This document shows, piece after piece, positions 2,551 to 9,911 of a DNA stretch of 9,911 nt (position 1 is its first letter; every line of letters starts with the position of its first letter). This DNA comes from Candidatus Altimarinota bacterium (GTDB lineage: Bacteria; Patescibacteriota; Gracilibacteria; GCA-2401425; JAJOLG01). Under the pieces are notes generated by a model. That model ran no database searches. It saw only the letters and a list, made by a program, of their open reading frames with translations, and was not told the DNA's origin. The stretch is from assembly GCA_021129445.1 (NCBI GenBank), contig JAJOLG010000044.1, positions 1 through 9,911 of the forward strand, given 5' to 3'. The translations under genes and the position numbers were made by a program.

Positions 2551-6423
<3,873 letters not shown>

Positions 6424-7949: not shown

Positions 7950-8879
7950 TTAACTAAAATATTTATCTAAATCTGGTACAATTTGTTTTTTTCTTGATAA
8001 TCTTTTTCATAAATCTGCTAAATTATTTTCAATTTTTGTTCAAAAAATATTTTCAACAACTTTTGTTTCATTTCAATCTAAAACAAAACTTATGTTTTTT
8101 TCTTCTAAAATATCAACAACTGAAAGCAGGATGAAATCCAAATTATCTTCATGTTTGATTTTTTGTAATCATTCTAAAATTTCGGTTTTTTTATCAAGTG
8201 AAAATTTTGGATTTGTAGTTTCAAGTGTTCAAATTCAAGCTTTTATTCAATTAAAATCAAAATTTTTATAATCAGATTTTATAATTTCTTCAATTGAAAA
8301 TCAAGTTAAATCTGATTTTGCATCAAACATATTTTTTACAAATTCTCATAAATGCTCAATTTTTGCAATTTTATTTAGTTCTTTTCAAATTTGAACATCT
8401 TCTCTTGTGGTTGTTGCAGATCTGAAATTTAAAGTGTCAGAAACTATTGCAGAAAGCATTAAAGTTGCAATTTTTTGAGAAATTTCAAATCAATTTTCTT
8501 TAAACATTTTATAAAGAATTGAATTTGTGGATCAAAGTTGTTCTGTTCTGATAAAAACTGGTCATGATGTTGAAAAATCTCAGATTTTATGATGATCAAC
8601 CAAATATTCAATTTCATATTTTCAAATATTTTCAATTGATTGTGATTTTTCGTTGTGGTCAACAAGTGCAATTTTTGTTCATTCTTCAAGCCCTAAAATT
8701 GTTTCTGGCTCTTGAATTCAGCAAAAATCCAAAACAAATTTTGTTTCTTTATTTAGATTTCAAAGTTTAATTGGAGTTGATTTTTTTCATTTTTGCTCTA
8801 AAAAATTTTGAAAAACAATTGATGCACAAACTGCATCGGTATCAGGGGATTTGTGTGATATTATCTTTATTTCGCTCAT
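7950..8879 (-). CDS. ppaC: Manganese-dependent (family II) inorganic pyrophosphatase
   Basis: A 309-residue DHH-family enzyme that hydrolyses pyrophosphate to two phosphates in the cytoplasm, pulling nucleic-acid and protein synthesis forward. Ligands and catalytic residues sit almost exactly where B. subtilis PpaC has them: SHKSPDTD with H9, D13 and D15; DHNE at 74-77; DHH at 95-97; SDTLNFRSATTT with D148; and the substrate-binding SRKKQIVP at 295-302. Length and end match the family, with no CBS or DRTGG insertion. The LGSTNS segment replaces the usual GCTAT-like one. TGA encodes many glycines. The ATG at 8879-8877 follows an A/T leader without a Shine-Dalgarno. It is the first gene of the four-gene minus-strand cluster and stops 26 bp before the sigma-factor start. 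The promoter is not obvious upstream. Confidence 0.95.
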
Positions 8880-9003
8880 AATTTTATTTATTTTGTATAA
8901 AAAATTTGTACAGAAATTTTTTTTATTGATTTGAAATTATTGAAAAATTTTTTTGTGTCAAAAAAATTTTATTTTTTTATATGAAAAAATGTTTTAATTT
9001 TTC

Positions 9004-9032
9004 TTGACATAAATAAAAAAATATTTTATATT
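9004..9032 (+). promoter_or_regulatory. Sigma-70-like promoter for the downstream RNA region
   Basis: A perfect -35 box TTGACA (9004-9009), a 17-nt spacer and a -10 box TATATT (9027-9032, five of six consensus bases) are preceded by AT-rich DNA that could act as an UP element. Initiation would be near 9039-9041. No protein gene follows on this strand, which suggests it drives a non-coding transcript. The match is unusually good even for an AT-rich background, because the -35 box contains G and C. Confidence 0.6.
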
Positions 9033-9183
9033 AAGTAAAAAAAATCACAGTGAAAATTTTTACATAATAAAAAAAAATATTTTAAAAATTTTTCAACTAA
9101 TAAAGATTTTTTTTTAAAATTTTTTTAGTAAAATTATCTGATTTGAAAAAAATCAAGAAAATTAAAATAAACGGAAAAAATCA

Positions 9184-9335
9184 ACCCAGGGTAAATGAGT
9201 TTAAAATTCAAAAAGAGAAGAATAGAGGGTTTTAACCTTTCTCGATTTTGAACTCATCTACCCTCTATCTTCCGAACCAACCGCGGAACTGAATTTTACC
9301 ATTTGGTTAAAATTTAGTATAACACAGCTGATTCG
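9184..9335 (+). ncRNA. Predicted structured RNA, family unknown (island 1)
   Basis: A locally GC-richer island lies about 145 bp after the predicted start site. Helix A2 pairs 9196-9207 with 9245-9256 (12 bp, one G-U) and is extended outward by GGGTA/TACCC (9189-9193 with 9259-9263). Helix B pairs 9217-9230 with 9260-9272 (13 bp, one bulge). It competes with GGGTA/TACCC and with a small inner helix (9215-9220 with 9237-9243), but could coexist with A2 as a pseudoknot. Helix C pairs 9288-9300 with 9305-9318 (13 bp, one bulge, ATTT loop). Three long helices in 130 nt are hard to explain by chance. I recognise no known family; strand follows from the promoter. True ends are unknown. Confidence 0.5.
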
Positions 9336-9361
9336 AAAAATAGAGTGATTAAATTTTTTTA

Positions 9362-9390
9362 CTCAATTTATGATTGAGACAAATTTTTTA
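9362..9390 (+). terminator. Possible weak terminator after RNA island 1
   Basis: CTCAAT (9362-9367) pairs with ATTGAG (9373-9378) around a TTATG loop, and a T-run follows at 9384-9389. The stem is only 6 bp and the T-run starts 5 nt away, so termination may be partial or absent. If used, it would give a transcript of roughly 350 nt from the promoter at 9004-9032. Confidence 0.35.
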
Positions 9391-9438
9391 AATTTATTTT
9401 TTAAAAATATGATTTAATTTTTTTGTAAAAAATTTAAT

Positions 9439-9538
9439 TGATAAGAATTATTAAATTCCTTATCAGGATCCTTTTTCAAGTAAAAAGACCCCGATATTTT
9501 TTATATCTGCTTTCATATTTTTTAAAATAAAAAATATG
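9439..9538. other. Four tandem hairpins, no gene
   Basis: Consecutive inverted repeats fill this stretch. Arms 9439-9449 and 9454-9465 give 11 bp with one bulged C and an ATTA loop. CTTTTT/AAAAAG (9471-9476 with 9482-9487) closes a CAAGT loop. GATAT/ATATC (9493-9497 with 9503-9507) closes a T5 loop. CATATTTTTT/AAAAAATATG (9514-9523 with 9529-9538) is a perfect 10-bp stem. The first is followed by GGATCCTTTTT and could terminate plus-strand transcripts. They may belong to a longer RNA. The adjoining stretch 9539-9637 is an A-rich run in which I see nothing functional. Confidence 0.4.
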
Positions 9539-9637
9539 TAAAACACACAAAAACAAAAATAAAAAAAATAAATAATTTCAAAATAAAATTATTTAAAACA
9601 AAAACAAAATTTTTAGTCATTGTTCCGCATAATTCTC

Positions 9638-9860
9638 CTTAATTTTTTAAAATTAAGAATCGTTTACGATTGAGTTGTGTTAACTAAAAGCGAATAAATG
9701 ATATACCCAGGACACGGTTTCAAAAAACTGTCCCGGAAAGTGGAGGGTTGATACTACAAGGCCCGCACCTTGTAGATCTTATAAACTGTTTTGAGAAAAT
9801 TTCTTCCCCAGGATTTATTTCTTGTTGAGGCAGGAAAAATATTTTTCAAAACATCTTTTA
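9638..9860 (+). ncRNA. Predicted structured RNA, family unknown (island 2)
   Basis: A second GC-richer island ends directly at a strong terminator, which sets the strand. Two abutting hairpins lead in: CTTAATTTT/AAAATTAAG (9638-9657) and AATCG/CGATT (9658-9671). Then come GGACA/TGTCC (9710-9714 with 9729-9733, flanked by CC/GG) and a perfect 8-bp stem CTACAAGG/CCTTGTAG (9754-9761 with 9768-9775) with loop CCCGCA. The latter is extended by GTT-ATA/TAT-AAC across a G-A mismatch and a 4-nt bulge. A 13-bp helix pairs 9787-9800 with 9841-9853 with one bulged G. No clear promoter is seen just upstream, so the 5' end is uncertain and may lie as far back as 9040. I do not recognise the family; a riboswitch or leader for a gene beyond the window is less likely given the terminator but possible. 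Confidence 0.5.
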
Positions 9861-9891
9861 AACCTCGTGAATTTTTTCACGGGGTTTTTTT
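9861..9891 (+). terminator. Intrinsic terminator of RNA island 2
   Basis: AACCTCGTGAA (9861-9871) pairs with TTCACGGGGTT (9876-9886) over 11 bp with one G-U and a TTTT loop, running into seven T residues (9885-9891). On the minus strand the exit has only TTT, so this terminator serves plus-strand transcription. Confidence 0.9.
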
Positions 9892-9911
9892 AAAATCTTT
9901 TATTGATTTTT

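Follow-up and report, generated by a model that had tools for sequence, protein, structure and literature searches.

Genomic context of the island

The analyzed DNA, referred to below as the window, is a complete contig (C27) of 9911 bases from a 673-kb assembly of 77 contigs (94.8% complete) of an AT-rich bacterium with a small genome. Base 9911 is the last one of the contig. The genes of the window can be read through only if TGA encodes glycine, and TGA accounts for 221 of their 230 glycine codons, while GGN is almost absent. A genome of the same order (G001) uses GGN for glycine, with TGA ending 27 of 202 long open reading frames in a 400-kb sample; in another family (f15), which belongs to the same class only, TGA also occurs inside genes. 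Either TGA recoding is distributed patchily among these orders, as it seems, or the genome's placement deserves a check. The following features were assigned to the window, the two RNA polymerase genes by eye from the sequence and the other proteins by Pfam:

2-2329: rpoB, most of the gene
2551-6423: rpoC
minus strand: YbaB-family protein, thioredoxin and sigma-70-type factor
7950-8879, minus strand: DHH/DHHA2 phosphoesterase
9004-9032, plus strand: promoter-like site (11/12 matches), upstream of the island 9165-9330
9500-9528, plus strand: promoter-like site TTTATA-17-TAAAAT (9/12 matches, weak), the nearest one upstream of 9638
9638-9892, plus strand: noncoding GC-enriched island, a candidate small RNA with terminator, studied by GC content, fold z-score and a six-frame coding test

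The DHH gene is preceded by a gap exceeding 1 kb, which contains the island. A consensus scan detected no promoter-like site just upstream of 9638, and the number of consensus promoter matches in the gap does not exceed that in shuffled sequences. Several other elements were observed in the gap. The stretch 9165-9330 is its first GC-rich structured island, with fold z-scores of -4.6 on the plus strand and -5.4 on the minus strand; the hairpins 9165-9330 and 9440-9502 both fold better on minus. A 15-bp hairpin, TATCGGGGTCTTTTT/AAAAAGGATCCTGATA, is found on the minus strand at 9453-9490, where G.U pairs make the pairing uninterrupted on this strand only. The motif CCCAGG occurs on the plus strand at 9185, 9706 and 9807, each time inside a structured island of the gap, and once elsewhere in the window. 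On the minus strand, within 9640-9532, AAGGAG lies 5 bases before an ATG (MRNND, stop), overlapping a further ATG, which belongs to a 32-residue hydrophobic frame with a negative codon score. The leaders of the other gene starts read in the window are A-rich and lack an AAGGAG-like motif, and this one may therefore be due to chance.

Composition and coding potential

The GC content of the island is 33.9%, rising to 48.7% in its core (9703-9780), compared with 16.6% and 10.5% in the noncoding flanks 9331-9637 and 8880-9164. The enrichment described in the earlier note is therefore borne out. GC enrichment in AT-rich genomes is a recognized sign of structured noncoding RNAs (PMC6429828), whereas a fold predicted from a single sequence does not constitute evidence that a structure is functional (PMC8250186); for this island, GC enrichment is the better argument of the two.

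Codon-usage scores, calculated with the genome's own code, were negative in all six frames of the island, the best being -0.49 bits per codon, compared with a mean of +0.65 and a minimum of +0.18 for in-frame 150-nt pieces of the window genes. Peptides from frames across the island gave no Pfam match. The earlier note had likewise seen no coding signal, and the protein gene on either strand that it had named as a ground for refutation is contradicted by the negative scores in every frame, because of which the island is very probably noncoding.

The terminator

The island contains four predicted hairpins followed by a terminator:

9638-9657, plus strand: AT-rich hairpin CTTAATTT-TTTA-AAATTAAG, 8 bp with a single GC pair (weak evidence)
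9707-9736, either strand: GGACA/TGTCC hairpin, better paired on minus, where U.G replaces A.C at 9709/9734
9754-9775, either strand: perfect 8-bp hairpin CTACAAGG-CCCGCA-CCTTGTAG (loop CCCGCA on plus)
9787-9853, plus strand: long imperfect hairpin closed by the AU-rich helix 9787-9798/9842-9853 (12 bp, one G.U)
9861-9892, plus strand: intrinsic terminator, stem 9861-9871/9876-9886 (11-12 bp) with a T-run to 9892

The plus-directed terminator is the best-supported part of the island. A GC-containing hairpin is followed directly by a T-run, as defines an intrinsic terminator, the fold z-score on the plus strand is -6.8, and the stem has a pairing probability of 1.00, so that the proper terminator proposed for the end of the island is indeed present. 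A fixed-rule terminator scan did not list 9861-9892; its rule for the start of the T-run may be unsuited to a stem with A-T outer pairs.

Attenuators usually consist of a structured domain and then a terminator, and the contig stops at 9911, so any next gene lies outside it. The island could accordingly act in cis as an attenuator or riboswitch, in the 5′ leader of a plus-strand gene located past 9911; terminator formation would then depend on what the hairpins sense. The 3′ arm of the terminator pairs with 9721-9740 marginally better than chance (P 0.08). However, no upstream stretch competes for the 5′ arm more strongly than expected by chance (P 0.63), the pairing probability of 1.00 was obtained from each of four 5′ ends tested, and no known leader family matches. 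Because the competing pairings are no better than chance or marginal, a plain 3′ end is favored over a switch, and we regard the leader as an unlikely but serious alternative.

Folding strength and strand of the hairpins

Fold z-scores were calculated against dinucleotide shuffles, and they are descriptive because the stretches were picked after the folds had been seen. For the whole island they amount to -4.5 to -4.7 on plus and -4.35 on minus. Much of this signal is due to the terminator, since the remainder (9638-9857) reaches -3.0 on plus and -3.15 on minus. The corresponding values for 9638-9786 are -2.4 and -3.3.

The perfect 8-bp hairpin with the CCCGCA loop was found as described before, at 9754-9775, and is extended by the pairs 9750-9752/9776-9778. 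Perfect stems of 8 bp or more, containing four or more GC pairs, appeared in 0.3% of the island shuffles, and a chance origin is unlikely. The GGACA/TGTCC hairpin also exists, with its arms at 9710-9714/9729-9733; on plus, an A.C mismatch at 9709/9734 separates them from outer CC/GG pairs. Folded alone (9703-9740), it is ordinary, with a nonsignificant z-score of -1.5. The helix closing the 3′ domain, previously given as 13 bp, is likewise real and measures 12 bp with one G.U. The tertiary pairing suggested between GGG at 9745-9747 and CCC at 9762-9764 would be geometrically possible, with just 3 bp. The G-rich stretch 9742-9749 could also pair with 9630-9637 (P 0.15) or with the terminator arm (P 0.25), neither of which beats shuffled partners.

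The predicted fold of the core 9703-9786 has an energy of -29.3 kcal/mol on minus (z-score -3.6) compared with -22.7 kcal/mol on plus (z-score -1.8). Together with the gap hairpins 9165-9330 and 9440-9502, which are also better on minus, this would be expected if the core were part of a minus-strand RNA, for example a leader belonging to the minus-strand genes or one of their small RNAs, with the plus-strand terminator a separate element adjoining it by chance. The preference of the core is, however, a lean rather than proof, because it is largely due to the single wobble position 9709/9734 (A.C on plus, U.G on minus). The 3′ third leans the other way: 9787-9892 prefers plus, with z-scores of -2.6 on plus and -1.9 on minus for 9787-9857, and the promoter scan reported no such site on the minus strand of the gap. 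A minus-strand origin of the core seems improbable to us, though it too is a serious alternative.

Search for relatives

BLAST searches of the island in two sets of class genomes (60 and 192) returned only short AT-rich matches. A covariance model based on this one sequence recovered only itself among 353 class genomes, and again in 40 genomes for which more candidates were scored; the other hits, at 17-20 bits, represent noise. Both types of search start with a loose prefilter that needs some resemblance, which very diverged homologues could escape. Infernal was also run with no prefilter on roughly 0.5 Mb from relatives, of which 400 kb came from G001, the only same-order genome in the set; the best hit, at 20.4 bits, is a tRNA-Leu of that genome. 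Using the DHH gene as a syntenic anchor, we found a frame within about 100 bases upstream and no comparable gap in four of the five best relatives' loci; the fifth (G009), in which DHH lies inside a longer frame, was left unjudged. Searches of phage, plasmid and viral-contig sequences yielded nothing of note. With no homologue found, there is no covariation evidence for the structure. The genomes searched include no close kin, and the missing homologues therefore say little about conservation within the genus.

The lack of detectable conservation in the covariance-model search is compatible with an explanation in which the terminator alone is functional, forming the 3′ end of a longer plus-strand transcript, and the hairpins are chance or decayed sequence; on plus, 9655-9786 has a z-score of just -1.7, and 12 of 200 shuffles fold as well. 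Nevertheless, a core of 49% GC within a gap of 10-17% GC, containing a perfect GC-containing 8-bp hairpin, is hard to explain without selection, and we consider a functional terminator among chance hairpins quite unlikely.

A candidate small RNA

Our preferred explanation, held tentatively and at somewhat below an even chance, is a lineage-restricted small noncoding RNA on the plus strand that ends at about 9892. It is favored by the strong plus-strand terminator, the GC enrichment, the negative six-frame test, the fold z-score of -4.5 (-3.0 without the terminator) and the lack of a competitor for the 5′ arm. Counted against it are the lack of homologues and covariation, the better folding of the core on minus and the lack of a good promoter directly upstream. 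A plus-strand noncoding transcription unit would end at the intrinsic terminator, and the GC-rich hairpins would form the body of an RNA of roughly 250-360 nt, the shorter length applying to a start near 9638 and the longer one to a start from the promoter-like site 9500-9528. The terminator hairpin, folding independently of the upstream part, would end the RNA and protect its 3′ end, and the function may lie in the upstream hairpins, through base-pairing or the binding of a protein. Transcription, the 5′ end, the action of the hairpins on the plus strand and their mode of action are what we infer from the sequence. Of the structured RNA ending in a terminator that the earlier note proposed, the noncoding character, the GC enrichment and the plus-strand terminator have held up; the evidence stops short of a single plus-strand structure, as no homologue and hence no covariation was found, the sequence preceding the terminator folds on plus no better than on minus, and 9703-9786 prefers minus.

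Very unlikely, in our judgment, is a new structured RNA class of a little-sampled lineage, such as a small pseudoknot with an expression platform (for example, with GGG 9745-9747 paired to the CCC loop at 9762-9764 and stacking on the 8-bp hairpin) or a diverged RNA replacing one that Rfam misses in this genome.

If real, the small plus-strand RNA adds a noncoding RNA candidate in a bacterium with TGA-encoded glycine and a small genome, and it could be checked in metatranscriptomes. At present, it remains one orphan candidate of a common type, of limited importance as long as neither relatives nor expression have been found.

Comparison with known RNAs

The Rfam comparison proposed earlier brought no identification: in the window scan and in a permissive scan of the island, no family exceeded its cut-off, and the matches were due to chance, mostly to the terminator. 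The best match by E-value was the L10_leader (RF00557), with 26.6 bits compared with a cut-off of 44, a score that comes mainly from the terminator. Both the leader and the island end in a terminator; however, the fit to the helix proper to the leader is poor, and no rplJ is known downstream of the island. RNase P RNA (RF00010) stays below the gathering score at the island, and the genome's copy is located on contig C15 (134.6 bits). For tmRNA (RF00023), the island contains no tRNA-like domain and has no ARAGORN, Rfam or meaningful match to a tmRNA profile of 14 relatives; none exceeds the cut-off in this genome, whereas 16 of 20 relatives have one above it.

The conserved S domain of SRP RNA carries a GGAA tetraloop with AGCAG. 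SRP RNA (RF00169) has no Rfam match at the island or in the genome, and AGCAG is absent from both strands of 9638-9891. The small SRP RNA model gave nothing over its cut-off in this genome or in 20 genomes of the class, while most controls were positive. 6S RNA (RF00013) has no Rfam match at the island and was not found in the genome. It resembles the island in its size and noncoding nature; in contrast to the separate hairpins predicted here, 6S RNA forms one rod with a central bubble.

A further comparison is with the orphan intergenic noncoding RNA candidates obtained from GC and intergenic-length screens of AT-rich genomes (PMC6429828). Unlike for those candidates, no homologues of the island were found from which to build a consensus structure, but it shares with them a GC-rich island in a long noncoding gap, hairpins and an intrinsic terminator.
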